Below, in pieces: positions 4,377-61,415 of a stretch of 64,000 nucleotides of DNA. This DNA comes from Phycisphaerales bacterium (GTDB lineage Bacteria > Planctomycetota > Phycisphaerae > Phycisphaerales > UBA1924): contig JALHNK010000002.1 in NCBI GenBank assembly GCA_022843565.1, forward strand, positions 1-64,000, read 5' to 3'. The notes below the pieces were generated by a model, which ran no database searches, was not told where the DNA came from, and saw only the letters and a list, made by a program, of their open reading frames with translations. The number at the start of each line of letters is the position of its first letter. The stretch's first letter is position 1. A program made the position numbers and the translations under genes.

Positions 4377-4685
4377 AAACACCTCGCAAGTGAGCCGGCA
4401 AGGGACGAGGCCCGGGCCGGGAGAAATGACAGACGACGACCTGCGGCGCGCAACGCGCCGACAGGAGCCTCCCGGCGTGCGAACGCATGAGCGCGAGCCT
4501 GCCGGGGTGCAAGTGTCTCCAATATCTGGGGTTGCGTCAACCCGGCAGAGCTTGGAATGTGCGGCGCGTGTGGACCGCTTCGGGCGATACTAGGCGTATG
4601 GTCGGATGATCCGGTGATCGTTGTTGGTCGCCGGCGCGGGGTTCGATGGGGCGGGCGACGCGGATGGGCCGATGAAAGGGTGAGT
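4377..4685. other. Divergent intergenic region
   Basis: About 310 nt between divergently transcribed genes. It contains a TTGACG hexamer on the minus strand (4540-4535) with only a poor -10 partner (GACACT) 17 nt away. No gene, RNA or strong hairpin was seen. Confidence 0.3.
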
Positions 4686-51716: not shown

Positions 51717-54437
51717 ATGACCACCGAAAAACTGAGCGTCCTCCCCCCCCGCCCGGCTGTCACCACGCCCACGCGGCTGCTCGCGGCATGTGCCAGCGCC
51801 CTGGCGCTGTCGATCCTGACTGCGCCGGCCCCGGCCCAAAACTCCCTCTTTGCCCCCTGCGCCCAATGGAAGACCTTTGAGCAGGCGGGCCTGGGTGAGA
51901 CGCTGCGATCACAAGGCAGCATCACATCGATGGTGGCCTTTGATCTTGATGGCCCGGGCCCGCAGGGCGAGTCGCTGCTGGCGTCGGTCTTCGGGTCGGC
52001 GTCGATCGACGGCCAGCCGGTGCCCTCATTGATGCGCTGGACCGGCGAGGCTTGGGTGCCCTTGCCCGGGCTTCAGACTTCGTCCGGCACGATCAACCTC
52101 TGGGTCATCGAATCGCCCGACGGCACGGGAAGATCGCTCTTCGCTACCGAGTCGCTGTTCGGAACGAGCCCTCAGCTCAGGGTCTCTCGCTGGAACGGTT
52201 CGGAGTTCGTGTTGTTCGCGGCCGCGCCGACGACGGGGGCCAACTCGCTTGCGTCGATCGCGAGTTTCGATCCCGACGGACCCGGGCCCCAGCCGCGGGA
52301 GTTGTACTTTGTCGAGTCCGGCTCGTCCGCGCTGCTCTTCCGCATCCGAAACAGCCAGCGCGATGTCGTGTCGACCATATCGATGTCCGCGCCGCGGCTG
52401 TTCGAGTACGTCTCCGCCGATGGTCAGCAACGCCGCCTCATTCTCTCGGGCTCGGGTACGAGTTCTTCGATCGCGAACTTCCGCGGGATCGCGGCGTTCA
52501 CCGGCACGCTCTGGGAGGCCATCGGCGACACGCTCTTTGGCACAACCGAGACCTCGGGTCCGGCCGTCTCCGACGCGACGATGTTTGACCCTGACGGCCC
52601 GGGACCACTCCCAGAATCGCTCACGATTTCGGGCTACTTCCGCGTTGGCTCACTGGCGGGACCGCTCGGACTCGCGTACTTGCAGGGTCAGCAGTGGGTC
52701 GCGCTTGGCAGTGGCTTGGTGGGCTCGTCTTCAGTCGGCGCGATCCGACTGGTACCCATTCCCGCCAACAACGAATCAACCACTCGCCCGCGCGCCGTGC
52801 TCATCGGCTACTTCACAAGCGTTGACGGCGTTCCGGCCCGATCCGTCGCCCAGTTGGTCGGCCAGACCTGGCAGGAATCGCCACTGGCATCGCCGTCCGT
52901 CTTCCCGCCGTCACCGATCGCGGCGTTCGACGCCGATCTCGGCGGACCACAAGCGCCGTTCGTTGCCCTTTCAAACAGGCTGGCCCCGGCCACGCTTTCT
53001 GAGCACAAGGACATCGTCATCGCGTCCGATGGCCAGTCGCGACAGCCGCTTCGGGGTCAGTTCGTCGGCGGCGCGGCAAACGTCCTTGAACTGCGCATGC
53101 TCGCCGACGACCAGGGCGTGCAACGCCTGCACGCGGCAGGCGAATTCGTCTACGCGGGCGACCGACTCGTCGCCCCGGTCGTCAGGCTCGTGAACGGATC
53201 GTGGGAGTCGGTGGGTACGCCATTCTCCAATACGTTCACATCGATCGTGCGACATGACCTCGATGGCAGCGGCCCGGAGCCCGAGAAATACGTCGCACTT
53301 GGAAACGGCTCGCCCGCTCGCTCGCTCTTCGCGCTCAACGGCGAGACGTGGACCTTGGTCCCCACAACGCCGGCGTCCAGCAACCTCAGCATTCTCACAA
53401 CACTTGAATCTTGGGATCCGGACAATCAGGGGCCCGGTGCGCCCGTGCTGCTGGCGTCCTACGCCGCGACAACCGGCCTTTTCAACCCGTTCCCGGGCGT
53501 GCTGGTTGACGGCGTCTGGCGGCCTCTTGGCGTGTCCCCAACCGGGAACGACACGCTCAGCAAGTTTGCCATCTGGGACGCTGACGGCCCCGGCCCTGAC
53601 CAGCGTCGCCTCTACATGAACGCTGGCGGACTCCATCGCTTTGAGCCCAACGGCACGGATCCCGCGCAGTGGGGTTCTTCGCCGTGGACGCGACTCAGCC
53701 AGCCGGCTTTCGGGAGCGGGTTGATCGTCAACCGCGCCGCGCCGGCGGCCACGCCCGCCCTCATGTTTGATGGCAGCTCCCAGCGGTCGTCCTCTTCAGG
53801 GTCGCCGATCCGTCAGTTCTCCGCTGGCGCCTTTTCGAGCAGCGTTCTGGGCTACCGAACCACGTCGACTGCGTCTGAAGCAACGATTGACCTGTGGGAC
53901 TCGGACGGCGACGGCCCCGCCGCCTCGCGCCCCATCGTTTCACCCGTCTTCACTGCCAATATGCCCGCGGATGGCTTCGGTGGCGGAGAGAACAACTGGA
54001 GGTATCGTGCGTCGATCCTGAGTGATGGCCGGTGGTTTGGGCTCGGTGCGCGAAACACCAGCTCCACGGGCAATGGGCTGTTCGTCTACCGCCCAGACGC
54101 GGGCTCCACTCGCGAAGTCATCCTTCAGTTCTATGGAACAAAGCGGTTCGCGTCGTTTGCTCAAGACATCTTCGTCTTCTCCGCCGACTGCCCCTGCTCC
54201 GTCGCCGATATCGCCGACGACCAGGGCAACGCACTCCCAGGCACCGGGCCCAACAACGGCGTCACCGAAGGCGACTACAACCACTTCTTCACCGCCTTCT
54301 TCACCGCCTCGCCAACCTGCGACATCGCCGACGACCAGGGCAACCCCCTCCCCGCCGCGCCCAACGTCCCCAACAACGGCGTCACCGAGGCCGATTACAA
54401 CTGCTTCTTCAGCCTCTACTTCAACGGCTGCCCGTAA
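51717..54437 (+). CDS. Exported repeat protein with GC-type dockerin tail (paralogue 1)
   Basis: 906 residues with a long signal region (cut near APAPAQ, about 41). The body consists of repeated beta-rich units, each with an Asp-rich turn such as FDPDGPGPQPREL, FDPDGPGPLPESL, WDADGPGPDQRRL and WDSDGDGPAASR, alternating with SLMRWTGEAWVPL-type strands; this suggests a beta-propeller. Two dockerin-like repeats close the chain (ADIADDQGN, CDIADDQGN, NNGVTEGDYNHFF, NNGVTEADYNCFF) and it ends NGCP. It is the tandem paralogue of the next gene. No enzyme motif; a surface or matrix role is inferred. Confidence 0.8.
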   Translation: MTTEKLSVLPPRPAVTTPTRLLAACASALALSILTAPAPAQNSLFAPCAQWKTFEQAGLGETLRSQGSITSMVAFDLDGPGPQGESLLASVFGSASIDGQPVPSLMRWTGEAWVPLPGLQTSSGTINLWVIESPDGTGRSLFATESLFGTSPQLRVSRWNGSEFVLFAAAPTTGANSLASIASFDPDGPGPQPRELYFVESGSSALLFRIRNSQRDVVSTISMSAPRLFEYVSADGQQRRLILSGSGTSSSIANFRGIAAFTGTLWEAIGDTLFGTTETSGPAVSDATMFDPDGPGPLPESLTISGYFRVGSLAGPLGLAYLQGQQWVALGSGLVGSSSVGAIRLVPIPANNESTTRPRAVLIGYFTSVDGVPARSVAQLVGQTWQESPLASPSVFPPSPIAAFDADLGGPQAPFVALSNRLAPATLSEHKDIVIASDGQSRQPLRGQFVGGAANVLELRMLADDQGVQRLHAAGEFVYAGDRLVAPVVRLVNGSWESVGTPFSNTFTSIVRHDLDGSGPEPEKYVALGNGSPARSLFALNGETWTLVPTTPASSNLSILTTLESWDPDNQGPGAPVLLASYAATTGLFNPFPGVLVDGVWRPLGVSPTGNDTLSKFAIWDADGPGPDQRRLYMNAGGLHRFEPNGTDPAQWGSSPWTRLSQPAFGSGLIVNRAAPAATPALMFDGSSQRSSSSGSPIRQFSAGAFSSSVLGYRTTSTASEATIDLWDSDGDGPAASRPIVSPVFTANMPADGFGGGENNWRYRASILSDGRWFGLGARNTSSTGNGLFVYRPDAGSTREVILQFYGTKRFASFAQDIFVFSADCPCSVADIADDQGNALPGTGPNNGVTEGDYNHFFTAFFTASPTCDIADDQGNPLPAAPNVPNNGVTEADYNCFFSLYFNGCP

Positions 54438-54501
54438 GCGACACAGCCGCGGGGGGTTGTCACAACCAAGACTGATCACACGGGCCCGCCTGAGCAACGT
54501 T

Positions 54502-54576
54502 TTTGATCAGCGTGAGAAGAACATCACGCTCAAACTCGACATCGGCACCTGTTACATCCGGGCGCAGCACAGCCGC
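54502..54576 (+). pseudogene. Fossil fragment of dnaN
   Basis: 75 nt that align without gaps to 57774-57848 inside the intact dnaN, with 10 mismatches (65/75 identical). Read in frame it gives FDQREKNITLKLDIGTCYIR against FDQREKTVTLELDNDTCHIR of DnaN. It is flanked on the left by 35 nt (54463-54497) matching 57369-57403, the sequence after the second paralogue, at 34/35 positions. It has no start or stop of its own and is a remnant of a duplicated dnaN. Confidence 0.88.
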
Positions 54577-54592
54577 GCCCGAGGAGACCACC

Positions 54593-57346
54593 ATGACCGT
54601 TCGACCTTCCTGCGTTCTCTCGATTCACCAGACGCTGGCCGCCACGGCACGCGCGGCCGTGCTTTGCACAACTGCGATCGTGCTGACCGCGGCTCCGGCC
54701 CTGGCCCAAAACTCCCTCTTTGCCCCCTGCGCTCAATGGAAGACCTTTGAGCAGGCGGGGCTGGGTGAGACGCTGCGAGGTGCGGGGAGTCTGATCTCGC
54801 TCGTCACGTTCGACCTCGATGGCGCGGGGCCCGACGGCGAAACCGTGCTGGCGACAACCCAATCAATCTACCTCAACGGGCAGCCGACGACGCCGGTCAT
54901 CCGTTGGAACGGAACGACGTGGGTTCCCGTTCCGACGCCGCCGGAGTTTGGCGGCGGGACCACGCTGTGGGTCGTCGAATCGCCCGATGGCACGGGCAAG
55001 GCGCTGTACGCGACGACAAGGGAATTTGCCGCGGACATGACCCCCGTGCTGTATCGGTGGACGGGCACCGAGTTCGCGATGGTGGCAAGCCTGACGCCGA
55101 ACACGCGCGTGAGTATCGCGAACCTCGCAACGTTCGACGCCGACGGCCCAGGCGGGCCTGCGCCGCGCGAGTTCTATCACATTGAAGCCGGCGGCAGCGG
55201 TGTCACTGGGCTTCGCCGTCTGCGAGCCGGAATCTCCGAAGTCGTGACACCGCTGGCGCCTCCGAGCAATCAAGGATTCTCGAACTTTCAACTGTTTGAG
55301 TACGCGCCCGGGGGTGAAATCCCGTCGCGCCTCGTTCTCGCCGGGCCGACTTCGACAGTGACGAACGGGTTCGTCATCCGGGGCATCGCGGCGTACGACG
55401 GGGTGAGCTGGAGCACGCTCGGAGACTCGCTCTTCGGCTTGACATCAACGCGAACGCCGACCGTCACCAGCGCCGTGATCGCTGACCCCGACGGCGCGGG
55501 GCCGCTTGGCGAAACGCTCATCATCGCCGGCCAGTTCCGCGTCGGCTCGCAGACCGGACCCGCGGGGCTGGCATATCTCCAAGAGGATCAGTGGCTGCCG
55601 TTTGGTGCCGGGCTGACCGTGACCGTGGACGTCAGCAGCGCCGTGCGAATCGTCTCGATCCCGCAGAACAACCTCTCGTCAATTCGTCCGCGACTCGTGA
55701 TCGAGGGCAGTTTTTCAACGGTTGACAACCTCAGCCTGAATCGCACCGCGATGCTTGTCGGGCAGGCGTGGCAAGCTTTCCCGGCGTCGGATTTTAGCTA
55801 TTCGTGGTTCGCGCCACTTCCGACGACGGTCGACTTCGACGGCGCCGGGGGCAACCCGCCCGAGATCATCTTTAGCCGTGGACGCCGGAACGACCCGGCT
55901 GTGGATCCGATTCCTGCGATCGCGTTTGATGGAAGCAACACGCGCCCGCTCGCCTCGCAACTGATCAGCAGCGCCGCCGCGCGGGTCTTTGAACTCCGAT
56001 TGCTGCCGGATGAGACCGGCGTGCTCCGACTTCACGCCGCGGGCAGCTTCAACTACGCGGGCAACCGATTCATCGGCTCGGTGGCGAAGCTGGTGAACGG
56101 GTCGTGGCAGACGATCGGCACCCCGCTGGCCGATACGAGCAGCTCAGTCGTCGTCCACGACTTCGACGGCCCCGGCCCGCAGCCGCCGACCTATGCGCGG
56201 CTTGCGACACGCAGCGGTGAGTTTCAGAAGCTGTTCGTGCTCGATGGGCAAACTTGGAACGAGTTCCCGACGACGGTTGCTGCTGGCGCCGCCACGATTC
56301 GCAACACGCTTGAGAGCTTCGATCCTGACGCTGAGGGGCCGGGCCTGCCAACGCTCCTGAGCACGTACACATTGACAAACGACGGCGCTTTCAACCAGAA
56401 CCCGTCGGTGCTTGTGGGCTCGACGTGGCGCCGTCTGGGCGCGTTTTCTCGCGTATTCAACTCGTACAGCCCGCTCGTCACGTTTGACGCCGACGGGCCC
56501 GGCGGCTCTCCGGCACGGCTCTATATCAACGCGGGCGGACTGCACCGATTTGATGCGACAACGACTGACCCGGCGACTTGGGAGAGCGTGCCGTGGACGT
56601 CGCTCAGTTCACCGAGCTTTGGATCGGCTCTCGCCGTTGATAGAACGCCGTCGTCGAGCCCGAGTTTCTTGTTCGACGCCCCCGTGTCGCAGTCGGCGCT
56701 CGAGGCAGGCGGAAATCTGTTTCAGCGCTTTTCGCAAGACGCCGTCACGAGTGCGGGGCTTGGATTTCGACCGCGAAATTCATCGATTTCTGACTCGCAG
56801 ATGACGACCTGGGACTTCGACGGGAGCGGACCGCTGCCCGCGTCAGCGATCATCTCACCGGTGCCGCAAGCAAACATTCAGCGGAACTCGGTTTTCGGCT
56901 CGTCTCCCTGGAACTACCGCGCTTCCATCGCAAGCGGCGGCCGCTGGTACGGGCTCGGCTCTCCGCTCACGAGCCTCGTCTCCGCAAGCGGCCTCCTGGC
57001 GTACCGGCCTCATCCGGCTTCGGGCGACGAAGTGCTCCTCCAGTTCGGAGGCAAGCTGAGCTCGGTGGCGAGCGACATCTTCGTCTTCTCCGCCAACTGC
57101 CCCTGCTCCGTCGCCGACATCGCCGACGACGCCGGCCTGCCTCTGCCAACCTCCGGCTCAAACAGTGGCGTCACCGAAGGCGATTACAACCACTTCTTCA
57201 ACGCCTTCTTCACCGCCTCACCCTCCTGCGACATCGCCGACGACCAGGGCAACCCCCTCCCCGCCGCTCCCAACGTCCCCAACAACGGCGTCACCGAGGC
57301 CGATTACAACTGCTTCTTCAGCCTCTACTTCAACGGCTGCCCGTAG
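54593..57346 (+). CDS. Exported repeat protein with GC-type dockerin tail (paralogue 2)
   Basis: 917 residues from the ATG at 54593 (GAGGAG upstream). Signal peptide cut near AAPALAQ. The mature start NSLFAPCAQWKTFEQAGLGE is the same as in paralogue 1. The body shows the same Asp-rich propeller-like repeats (FDADGPGGPAPRE, ADPDGAGPLGETL, FDGPGPQPPTYAR) but is much more diverged than the ends. Two dockerin-like repeats end it (ADIADDAGL, CDIADDQGN, NNGVTEADYNCFF; final NGCP). The terminator at 57388 follows. With paralogue 1 it forms a tandem pair produced by duplication. Confidence 0.8.
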   Translation: MTVRPSCVLSIHQTLAATARAAVLCTTAIVLTAAPALAQNSLFAPCAQWKTFEQAGLGETLRGAGSLISLVTFDLDGAGPDGETVLATTQSIYLNGQPTTPVIRWNGTTWVPVPTPPEFGGGTTLWVVESPDGTGKALYATTREFAADMTPVLYRWTGTEFAMVASLTPNTRVSIANLATFDADGPGGPAPREFYHIEAGGSGVTGLRRLRAGISEVVTPLAPPSNQGFSNFQLFEYAPGGEIPSRLVLAGPTSTVTNGFVIRGIAAYDGVSWSTLGDSLFGLTSTRTPTVTSAVIADPDGAGPLGETLIIAGQFRVGSQTGPAGLAYLQEDQWLPFGAGLTVTVDVSSAVRIVSIPQNNLSSIRPRLVIEGSFSTVDNLSLNRTAMLVGQAWQAFPASDFSYSWFAPLPTTVDFDGAGGNPPEIIFSRGRRNDPAVDPIPAIAFDGSNTRPLASQLISSAAARVFELRLLPDETGVLRLHAAGSFNYAGNRFIGSVAKLVNGSWQTIGTPLADTSSSVVVHDFDGPGPQPPTYARLATRSGEFQKLFVLDGQTWNEFPTTVAAGAATIRNTLESFDPDAEGPGLPTLLSTYTLTNDGAFNQNPSVLVGSTWRRLGAFSRVFNSYSPLVTFDADGPGGSPARLYINAGGLHRFDATTTDPATWESVPWTSLSSPSFGSALAVDRTPSSSPSFLFDAPVSQSALEAGGNLFQRFSQDAVTSAGLGFRPRNSSISDSQMTTWDFDGSGPLPASAIISPVPQANIQRNSVFGSSPWNYRASIASGGRWYGLGSPLTSLVSASGLLAYRPHPASGDEVLLQFGGKLSSVASDIFVFSANCPCSVADIADDAGLPLPTSGSNSGVTEGDYNHFFNAFFTASPSCDIADDQGNPLPAAPNVPNNGVTEADYNCFFSLYFNGCP

Positions 57347-57387
57347 GCCACGCGCCGCGGGGTTGCCGCAACCAAGACTGATCACAT

Positions 57388-57425
57388 GGGCCCGCCTGAG
57401 CAAGGTGGGCCCTTGGCGTTTTCCG
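57388..57425 (+). terminator. Intrinsic terminator after paralogue 2
   Basis: A 10-bp stem (GGGCCCGCCT with AGGTGGGCCC, one G-T pair, loop GAGCA) at 57388-57412, followed by TTGGCGTTTTCC. The matching site after paralogue 1 keeps only the left arm (GGGCCCGCCT at about 54482-54491); the right arm was lost at the dnaN-fossil junction, so paralogue 1 may read through into paralogue 2. Confidence 0.75.
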
Positions 57426-57518
57426 GGGTCGCCGGCTGCCCGCCCCCGCCCCTGTCACCTGCCGTCACCTGCCCGATTGCCCGCCGCGAGTCCCCGGCGG
57501 GTGATAAACTGGTCCGCT

Positions 57519-58745
57519 ATGAAGATCATCTGCGCCCGTGATGCCCTGCTGGAAGCCGTGAACCTGATGTCGGCGGTTGTGCCCGCTCGAACGCCGGCCC
57601 CCGCGCTGTCGTGCCTGAAGCTCAACGCCACCAAGCAGGGCGGCGTCGGCTACCTGCAGATCACCGGCACCGATGCCGACACTTCGCTTGAGCTCAACCT
57701 CACGCAGGTGGACATCGCCCAGCCCGGCGTCGCAGTCATCTCCGCCGAAAAGCTCCGGCAGATCATCCAGGCGTTTGATCAGCGCGAGAAGACCGTCACG
57801 CTCGAACTCGACAACGACACCTGCCACATTCGCGCGCAGCACAGCCGCTTCCGCGTCTTCGCGTTCAACGCGGCGGACTACCCCGCGGTCCCGGCGTTCA
57901 ACCCGTCCACCGGCGTCGCCAACGCCCGCTCGCAGTTTGCCCAGTCCGTCGGCACGCTCCTGCGCCTCATCAACCGCACGATGTTCGCCACGGCCAAGGA
58001 AACCTCGCGCTACGCGATCAACGGCGTGCTCCTGAAGCGCGACGGCAAGAAGATCGAAATGGTCGCCACCGATGGGCGTCGCCTGGCCCTCTGCCGCGCG
58101 ACCGTCAAGGTCGCTTCCGAGACGCCGGTCTCGTGCATCGTGCCGACCAAGGCGCTCTCGCTGTTCACGCGCCTGGCCGGCAACCCCGAGTCCGCGGTGC
58201 GCGTCGCGATCACCGACAACCGGATCTTCTTCGCCTTCGATGACGCGGAAATTTCCGACGCCAAGGACGCCAAGAAGGACGCGAAGGAAGGCAAGGAGCC
58301 CAAGGCCTCGCTCCCGCCTCGCGCCGTGCTGAGCTCCACACTCGTCGAGGGCGCGTTCCCTCCCTACGACGACGTCATCCCCAAGGACCAGGACAAGAAG
58401 GCCACCGCATCGCGCGACGAGCTCATCTCCGCCGTGCGCCAGGCCTCCGTGCTCACCAACGAAGAGTCCCGCGGCATCCGCATGGCCTTCAGCGCCAAGG
58501 ACAAGAGCGTCAAGCTCTCCAGCCGCGCACCAGAACTGGGTGACTCCGAGATCGACCTGGGTCTCGCGGGCTACGAGGGCGAGGACCTTGAGATCTGCTT
58601 CAACCCGCACTTCTTCTCGGACGTGCTCAAGGCCCTGGACGAGCCGGAGATCATGATCGAGTTCAAGGCCCCGAACAAGCCCGGCGTGCTCAAGGCCGGG
58701 CCGGATTTCCTCTACGTGCTCATGCCCGTGAACCTGCCGACGTGA
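57519..58745 (+). CDS. dnaN: DNA polymerase III beta subunit (sliding clamp)
   Basis: 408 residues from the ATG at 57519; the frame is open upstream inside paralogue 2's end but MKIICARDALLEAVN is the normal clamp start. Three clamp domains are visible (first: TPAPALSCLKLNA, AEKLRQIIQAFDQREK, second: TMFATAKETSRYAINGVLL, VATDGRRLALCRA, third: SRGIRMAFSAKD, FNPHFFSDVLKALD) with the LMPVNLPT end (usual MPM/VR). An unusual Lys/Asp/Ala-rich insertion of ~20 residues lies at about 243-265. A TGATAAACT -10-like sequence lies just before the start. No dnaA or recF is adjacent. Confidence 0.95.
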   Translation: MKIICARDALLEAVNLMSAVVPARTPAPALSCLKLNATKQGGVGYLQITGTDADTSLELNLTQVDIAQPGVAVISAEKLRQIIQAFDQREKTVTLELDNDTCHIRAQHSRFRVFAFNAADYPAVPAFNPSTGVANARSQFAQSVGTLLRLINRTMFATAKETSRYAINGVLLKRDGKKIEMVATDGRRLALCRATVKVASETPVSCIVPTKALSLFTRLAGNPESAVRVAITDNRIFFAFDDAEISDAKDAKKDAKEGKEPKASLPPRAVLSSTLVEGAFPPYDDVIPKDQDKKATASRDELISAVRQASVLTNEESRGIRMAFSAKDKSVKLSSRAPELGDSEIDLGLAGYEGEDLEICFNPHFFSDVLKALDEPEIMIEFKAPNKPGVLKAGPDFLYVLMPVNLPT

Positions 58746-59870: not shown

Positions 59871-60041
59871 GGGCCGAGTTTTGAGGGCCGAGGGCGCGGA
59901 AGACAACGGGAATCGGCAATCGTGCTCGATTCCTATTTGCTGCTTTGAGCTTTGAGCTTTGAGCTTTGAGCTTTGAGCTTTGAGCTTTGAGCTTTGAGCT
60001 TTGAGCTTTCAGCTTCTTGCTGAAGGCTGACGGCTGACGGC
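59871..60041. repeat. Long heptamer array (TTTGAGC, TGACGGC, GGGCCGA words)
   Basis: TTTGAGC is repeated nine times without change from 59944 to 60006, then in the same 7-nt register come TTTCAGC, TTCTTGC, TGAAGGC, TGACGGC and TGACGGC up to 60041, 14 units in all. Upstream, GGGCCGA starts at 59871 and 59885, with the related GGGCGCG at 59892, as at 15132-15153. TCGGCAATCG is at 59912. The array fills the whole gap between two convergent genes and stops one base before the uvrC stop codon. Confidence 0.92.
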
Positions 60042-61415
60042 TCACTCAAGCATTTCCTTCTTCCGCAGCAAATGGTGATACGACTGCGCGAAGCGGTGGG
60101 CCTCGTCGCGCACGCTCTGGACAAGCCGCAACGCCGCGTTGGTCCGCGCCAAACGGATCGGCTCACTGCGGGCGCGCACGTAGATCAACTCCTCCTTCTT
60201 CGCCAGGCTGATCACCATCGGCGGCTGGATCTCCAGTTGCGCCAGCGCCTCCTCCGCGGCGTGAAGCTGCCCCAGCCCTCCATCAATCATGATCACATCC
60301 GGAAACAACTCCTGCCCCGCGCCCGCATCACGATACCGACGCGACACCACCTCGCGGATCGACGCGTAGTCGTCGTTGGCCACCGAGCGGATCTTGTACC
60401 GCCGATATTCCTCCTTGAACGGCCGACCATCGACGAAGCACACCTTGCTGCCCACCGTCTGCCCGCCCTGCAGGTGTGCGATATCGATCCCCTCGATGCA
60501 GCGCACGCCCCGCTCAAGGCCCAGGACTTTCTGCAACGCGGCGCATCCCTTGGCCGGGTCGAGGGCCGCGATCTCGGTCTCGGGCTGCCAGCCCTCGGCG
60601 ACCTGTGCCCGCTCATCCAGCTTCTCGATCGATCGAATCTGGTCACGAAGGGCCGCGGCGCGTTCGTACTGCATCAGCCCGCTCGCGGCATCCATCTCGC
60701 TGCGCAGCTCGCGGAGCATCGCCGAGCGCTTGCTCGAGATGAACCGCGCGAATCGCTGCACATCGGCGCCATACGCCTCAACGCCGATGCGCTCGGCACA
60801 CGGCGCGGTGCACTGATCGATCGCCGCGAGCAGGCAAGGCCGGAAGAACTTGTTCCTCGGATCGCCCGCGACAATATCAATCGAGCAGGTGCGAAACTTG
60901 AACGCCCTCTGCAAGAGCTGCACCGCCTCGCGCAGCGCGCCGACGTTGGTAAACGGGCCGTAGACCTTCGCCGACTTGAGCAGCCGCGTCAGTGTCTCGT
61001 CGCCGGCGCCGCTGGGGTTCCGCGTGACAAAGACGCGCGGGTAGTCCTCGTTCTGGGTGATGACCAGGTACGGGAAGCTCTTGCCGTCTTTGAGGCGTGC
61101 GTTGAACTTCGGCGCGGGGCGCAGGTCTTTGATCAGCCGGCTCTCGGTGAGCAGTGCCTCCCACTCGCCCTCGCACTCGATGACGTCAAAGTCCTCGACA
61201 ACATCCAGCAGCGGCTGCTTCTTGAAGCCCAGATCCGCCGAGGGGACGAAATAGCTCGAGACACGATCCGGCAGCGTGCGGGCCTTGCCCACATAGACAA
61301 CCGTGCCCTGAGCGTCCTTCATCAGGTACACGCCGGGCACACTTGACAGCGATCGCGCCTTCTTCAGCAAGCGATCCAGACGATCTTCGCGACTCGTTTC
61401 CACCACGCTATTCAA
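60042..61415 (-). CDS. uvrC: UvrC excinuclease subunit lacking the C-terminal HhH domain
   Basis: 457 residues, against about 600 for typical UvrC. The GIY-YIG nuclease (about 26-100: PGVYLMKDAQGTVVYVGKA, RVSSYF), four Cys at 177, 194, 202 and 206 (Fe-S ligand positions), the UVR motif (about 240-266) and the RNase H-like nuclease (GIDIAHLQGG with Asp311, IMIDGGLGQL, DEAHRFAQSYHH) are all present. The chain ends where the tandem helix-hairpin-helix region would begin, and the next plus-strand sequence is the heptamer array, so nothing of it remains. The start codon is a TTG and not certain. Confidence 0.9.
   Translation of the reverse strand: MNSVVETSREDRLDRLLKKARSLSSVPGVYLMKDAQGTVVYVGKARTLPDRVSSYFVPSADLGFKKQPLLDVVEDFDVIECEGEWEALLTESRLIKDLRPAPKFNARLKDGKSFPYLVITQNEDYPRVFVTRNPSGAGDETLTRLLKSAKVYGPFTNVGALREAVQLLQRAFKFRTCSIDIVAGDPRNKFFRPCLLAAIDQCTAPCAERIGVEAYGADVQRFARFISSKRSAMLRELRSEMDAASGLMQYERAAALRDQIRSIEKLDERAQVAEGWQPETEIAALDPAKGCAALQKVLGLERGVRCIEGIDIAHLQGGQTVGSKVCFVDGRPFKEEYRRYKIRSVANDDYASIREVVSRRYRDAGAGQELFPDVIMIDGGLGQLHAAEEALAQLEIQPPMVISLAKKEELIYVRARSEPIRLARTNAALRLVQSVRDEAHRFAQSYHHLLRKKEMLE

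Follow-up and report, generated by a model that had tools for sequence, protein, structure and literature searches.

Upstream of dnaN in a Phycisphaerales genome lie two tandem genes for exported proteins, and between these two genes is a short piece of DNA that resembles the interior of dnaN itself. Does this piece date the duplication that gave rise to the two genes, or does it record a later event? The original prediction chose the former, proposing that an ancestral block of exported gene, terminator and dnaN had been duplicated and that the first dnaN copy was then cut down to 75 nt. Here, we examined the window (the whole stretch of 64,000 nucleotides) in its source genome, a MAG of 237 contigs (G000), together with relatives from the Phycisphaerales, among which a congener (G001; contig C98, locus L031) served as the closest reference.

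All three genes are on the forward strand, in the order P1, P2 and dnaN. P1 (51717-54437) and P2 (54593-57346) encode exported proteins of 906 and 917 amino acids with 51% identity (460/894), and their C-termini match the GC-type dockerin (NCBIfam NF041540; residues 829-905 and 840-916, respectively). The two dockerins scored 31.0 and 31.7 bits in the genome search, above the curated cut-off of 29 bits, and 26 and 27 bits in the whole-protein scan, slightly under it. No Pfam or NCBIfam family was matched by the long bodies of either protein. The ATG at 54593 was taken as the P2 start; the ORF list begins this gene at an upstream TTG (54503). The dnaN gene (57519-58745, 408 amino acids) is intact and contains PF00712, PF02767 and PF02768. 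Further along the window, a UvrC gene on the minus strand (60042-61415) is only 457 amino acids long as called, and model positions ~258-352 as well as the C-terminal part of the family model are missing from its match.

The piece between P1 and P2 is a true relic of dnaN. As had been proposed, 75 nt at 54502-54576 (forward strand) match dnaN codons 86-110 (57774-57848, forward strand) at 65 of 75 positions, both by direct reading and in a repeat search. Alignment by computer was significant (E 1.6e-19 in a genome-wide BLAST, with no second place in the genome), and a protein-level search with DnaN recovered the same piece independently (E 1.3e-6). When the differences between relic and dnaN were polarised against the congener as outgroup, 7 of 10 were found to have arisen in the relic (five nonsynonymous and two synonymous) and two in dnaN (both synonymous), and one could not be assigned to either side; this polarisation rests on the correctly oriented congener row (L002). 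The relic thus looks like decaying dnaN whose changes are unconstrained. It is closer to its own dnaN (65/75) than the congener dnaN is over the same region (49/75), which dates the relic to after the species split. The junction was absent from all 163 family genomes searched, and a literature search for a dnaN relic found nothing.

The DNA directly before the relic has a second source. The region 54450-54500 (forward strand) corresponds to the sequence after P2 (57356-57406; ~90% of 51 nt), and within it 54463-54497 agrees with 57369-57403 at 34 of 35 positions, exactly as originally described; this match was also significant in the genome-wide BLAST (E 2.9e-13) and has no further copy in the genome. 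The sequence after P2 folds into a hairpin with a 10-bp stem (57388-57412, forward strand), a likely terminator, as the original prediction had assumed, although its tail TTGGCGTTTT is T-poor and falls under the threshold of the terminator scan, which did not list the hairpin. After P1, folding did not produce this 10-bp hairpin: only the left arm (~54482-54491) is present, the right arm is gone, and sequence from the dnaN interior now follows the left arm. That the hairpin is broken after P1 had been recognized correctly from the outset. With the likely hairpin terminator of P1 gone and dnaN debris making up the upstream region of P2, read-through from P1 and cotranscription with P2 are likely.

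On the other side of the relic, the similarity is much poorer. A match of about 26 nt to the 5' flank of P1 had been claimed; the gap between relic and P2 start is only 16 nt, of which 12 agree with the P1 flank (18/22 once the shared ATGACC is included). Some match does exist, but it is weak, and it is partly explained by a common ribosome-binding site and start. Both joints of the relic offer possible short microhomologies, partly read from a proxy flank. At the right joint, GCCGC (54572-54576, forward strand) also occurs in dnaN (57844-57848) and before P1 (51696-51700), where the P1 flank stands in for the lost P2 flank, which makes this evidence weak. The left joint is ambiguous, with GGCGTTT at both 57415-57421 and 57770-57776.

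To compare the ages of the different parts, we counted how many codons were identical where the two proteins have the same amino acid and compared this with the number expected under synonymous saturation, taking the expectation from codon usage in the bodies or in other dockerin ends. The bodies of P1 and P2 had 146 identical codons out of 329 (expected 134, P=0.10); their synonymous positions are saturated and their divergence exceeds that of dnaN between G000 and the congener, for which 207/308 codons were identical (expected 182, P=7e-4; not saturated). It follows that the paralogues probably predate the congener split, if the synonymous rates of the P genes and dnaN are taken as comparable. 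The 3' end of P1 (54161-54437, forward strand) behaved differently and became alike with that of P2 (57074-57346) only lately: 36/42 codons were identical in 54161-54319 (expected 26.8, P=7e-4) and 37/38 in 54320-54434 (expected 25.3, P < 5e-6), with the left edge of the young tract lying somewhere in 54161-54320. Raw fourfold identity showed the same order (41% for the bodies, 56% for dnaN between congeners, 87% for the 3' end). We rejected the 87% as proof of a recent 3' end and preferred the codon test, because C-bias inflates the value and codon bias alone would give ~74% at saturation. The dockerin-coding 3' end, the terminator and the relic are far younger than the bodies of the two genes. 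A patch near the 5' end of P1 (51836-51910, forward strand; P2 counterpart ~54706-54780) has also been exchanged lately (21/23 identical codons, expected 10) and is independent evidence that P1 and P2 exchange sequence. No excess was found in the signal-peptide region (5/10 vs 3.1 expected, P=0.16).

The neighbourhood of dnaN in other genomes points in the same direction. A divergent transketolase gene (tkt) adjoins dnaN in 36 of the 50 relatives with enough upstream sequence, including the congener; in none of these 50 did we find a P homologue beside dnaN, a dockerin gene ending shortly upstream of it, or a second dnaN nearby. In the light of this comparison, the position of the P genes beside dnaN is a derived arrangement, and their adjacency to dnaN is probably younger than the paralogues themselves. 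The simplest reading would be that the P genes reached dnaN after the congener split, their bodies having separated earlier. In G000, tkt sits on another contig (C28, locus L250) and its 5' neighbours are different; the divergent tkt-dnaN pair that most relatives have retained is thus split up in this genome, and the block found downstream of tkt in the congener sits on the tkt 5' side.

On this reading, which takes synonymous rates in the P genes and dnaN as comparable, the proposed old block of exported gene, terminator and dnaN falls away. One old duplication of this block, from which both paralogues and a first dnaN copy later reduced to 75 nt would have come, does account for the order of the pieces and for the relic itself. 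Nevertheless, we consider it very improbable: the bodies have diverged far more than the relic, terminator and dockerin end, no P gene adjoins dnaN in the congener or the other relatives examined, and strong purifying selection would have had to preserve a non-coding relic whose changes look unconstrained. Thus, the proposed dating of the relic to the origin of the paralogues did not hold. Nor was an ancestral block old enough to account for the paralogues seen in the relatives: our search for P genes beside dnaN found none there, and in most of them dnaN stands beside tkt.

The best explanation, which we regard as fairly probable, is a late overwriting of the P1 end by a copy of the P2 3' end that overran into dnaN. 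The young stretch runs from the P1 dockerin-coding end through the stop codon and the left arm of the terminator into the relic, and ends 16 nt before the P2 start. A homologous anchor is present on one side, where the dockerin-coding ends share 37/38 codons next to saturated bodies. In this scenario, the old paralogues would first have come to lie beside dnaN, and P1 would then have suffered a break, within its 3' end or beyond it, that was repaired with the similar dockerin-coding end of P2 as template. Copying would have continued past the P2 stop codon, through the terminator and into approximately the first 330 nt of dnaN, and the new end would have been joined 16 nt upstream of the P2 start, without real homology and possibly at GCCGC. 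At that time or afterwards, an internal stretch of ~370 bp, reaching from the right arm of the terminator through dnaN codon 85, would have dropped out of the copy. What remained would be 75 nt of dnaN, P1 without its hairpin terminator, and P2 with dnaN debris upstream. P2 is the natural donor because only its copy continues into dnaN; the direction from P2 to P1, the homologous repair on one side, the order of copying and deletion, and the molecular mechanism are what we infer from the scar. The donor DNA probably came from the same cell's chromosome or from a sister, though transfer between strains may instead have supplied it. Most simply, the right edge of the relic is the joint itself, and in that case no more than approximately the first 330 nt of dnaN needed to be copied. 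A complete second dnaN is then not required, and the transient duplicate of the sliding clamp once suggested becomes unnecessary.

Two other routes to the same scar were considered. The relic could be a templated insertion, in which a single template-switching event during replication connected the P1 end, the dnaN interior and the P2 flank in turn, without a later deletion. Such a switch would fit a short insert from ~370 bp further along the donor and the possible microhomologies of 2-5 nt at its ends; in one genome it would look the same as copying followed by deletion, and as a variant of the overwriting we find it improbable, if slightly less so than the old block duplication. An unlikely but more serious alternative is a recent tandem duplication of one P gene, its terminator and the initial 330 nt of dnaN, with GCCGC as the joint, after which recombination within the shared ends would have exchanged one body for a highly diverged homologue. 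Duplication and replacement would leave nearly the same picture as overwriting, as they account for young ends around a saturated middle as well as for the weak 12/16 match of the 5' flanks. Against them, no diverged-body donor was found in any relative, and the signal-peptide region has no excess of identical codons, so that the replaced part would have to flank the young 75-nt patch near the 5' end on both sides. We therefore retain the overwriting of P1 by P2 as the preferred reading, on an evidence base of one MAG and one congener, with no strain carrying an intermediate.

Exchange of dockerin ends is not limited to this locus. The regions examined contained 64 GC-type dockerin gene ends, and in five gene pairs whose bodies are unrelated or barely similar the dockerin ends were alike beyond saturation: 67/76 to 79/83 codons were identical, numbers not reached in any of 100,000 simulations. 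The pair on contigs C81 and C91 (loci L169 and L182) has 460 nt in common at 87%, a stretch that extends 137 nt past the stop codon and there includes a complete hairpin with a T run; similarity between the two bodies was limited to E 0.001 over 101 amino acids in a two-sequence comparison and 0.03 in the all-against-all search. Recombination between dockerin-coding ends has thus taken place recently in this genome, and on at least one occasion it included the terminator. In the pairs L152/L153 (C9), L172 (C138)/L182 and L169/L182, the dockerin-coding DNA is up to 96% identical and the bodies are unrelated. Three dockerin genes are clustered at L188 (contig C33; ends at 4530, 7090 and 10320); the outer two have bodies 81% identical, and the middle one has a largely different body with the dockerin end common to both (92-94%).

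Shared 3' flanks were rejected as evidence for a genome-wide mobile 3' cassette. Many flank matches turned out to be heptamer repeats or a REP-like palindrome, so only C81/C91 was kept as a clear case of a shared flank with terminator. The heptamer repeats (GAGTGCT, GAGGGCC, GGGCACT, GAGCTTT) occur in an intergenic region of the window (59928-59997) and directly after many dockerin stop codons (L150-L189). A period-7 self-match covered more than half of the length in 9 of the 64 dockerin 3' flanks, and no other period from 3 to 12 did so in any of the 64. The palindrome, GGGGCAGGCGTCCCGCCT, has 45 exact copies in G000 (reversed control, 0), for example at C20:28380, C50:9990 and C70:2624, several of them directly after dockerin genes.

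It is conceivable, and we propose it only tentatively, that dozens of genes for unrelated secreted proteins in this Phycisphaerales lineage continuously exchange their dockerin-coding 3' ends as a cassette of anchor domain and terminator, and that the exchange sometimes overruns into flanking DNA, the dnaN relic being one such overrun. If so, overruns would swap terminators, fuse transcription units and leave datable fragments of neighbouring essential genes. Taken with the exchanges at other dockerin ends, the relic suggests how a bacterium could keep adding the same anchor domain to many unrelated secreted proteins, with the by-product that terminators may go and genes may merge into one transcription unit. 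A literature search on the exchange of GC-type dockerins found nothing. The relic allows the age of the paralogues to be told apart from that of a later repair, and it suggests that converted tracts can exit the homologous region, taking a terminator and essential-gene DNA along. Gene relics between paralogues need not date a duplication, and this one is better read as a record of bacterial DNA rearrangement than as proof of a former clamp-gene duplication.

Among known systems, the homology-facilitated illegitimate recombination (HFIR) of de Vries and Wackernagel in 2002 reportedly concerns foreign DNA that cells acquire by transformation. The present case resembles HFIR in its homology at one end of the tract, with a joint at the other end that possibly formed without real homology, but here the donor was probably the chromosome of the cell itself or a sister, and the event is known from its scar alone. 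Repair with one-sided homology and an illegitimate joint is of a known kind (doi 10.1073/pnas.042263399, cited in PMC8116780). With regard to the proteins, the C-termini of P1 and P2 fit the domain model of the GC-type dockerin proteins (NF041540), whereas their long bodies lie outside any Pfam or NCBIfam family. Domain-restricted gene conversion between ancient paralogues is also known, for example between mtrA-1 and mtrA-2 (PMC4632066), where, as with P1 and P2, just one domain of two old paralogues has been kept alike. Gene conversion and one-sided repair are thus both of known kinds, and the noteworthy part is the proposed overrun into an essential gene: unlike that of mtrA-1/mtrA-2, the tract of P1 and P2 leaves the gene and carries the terminator and dnaN DNA with it.
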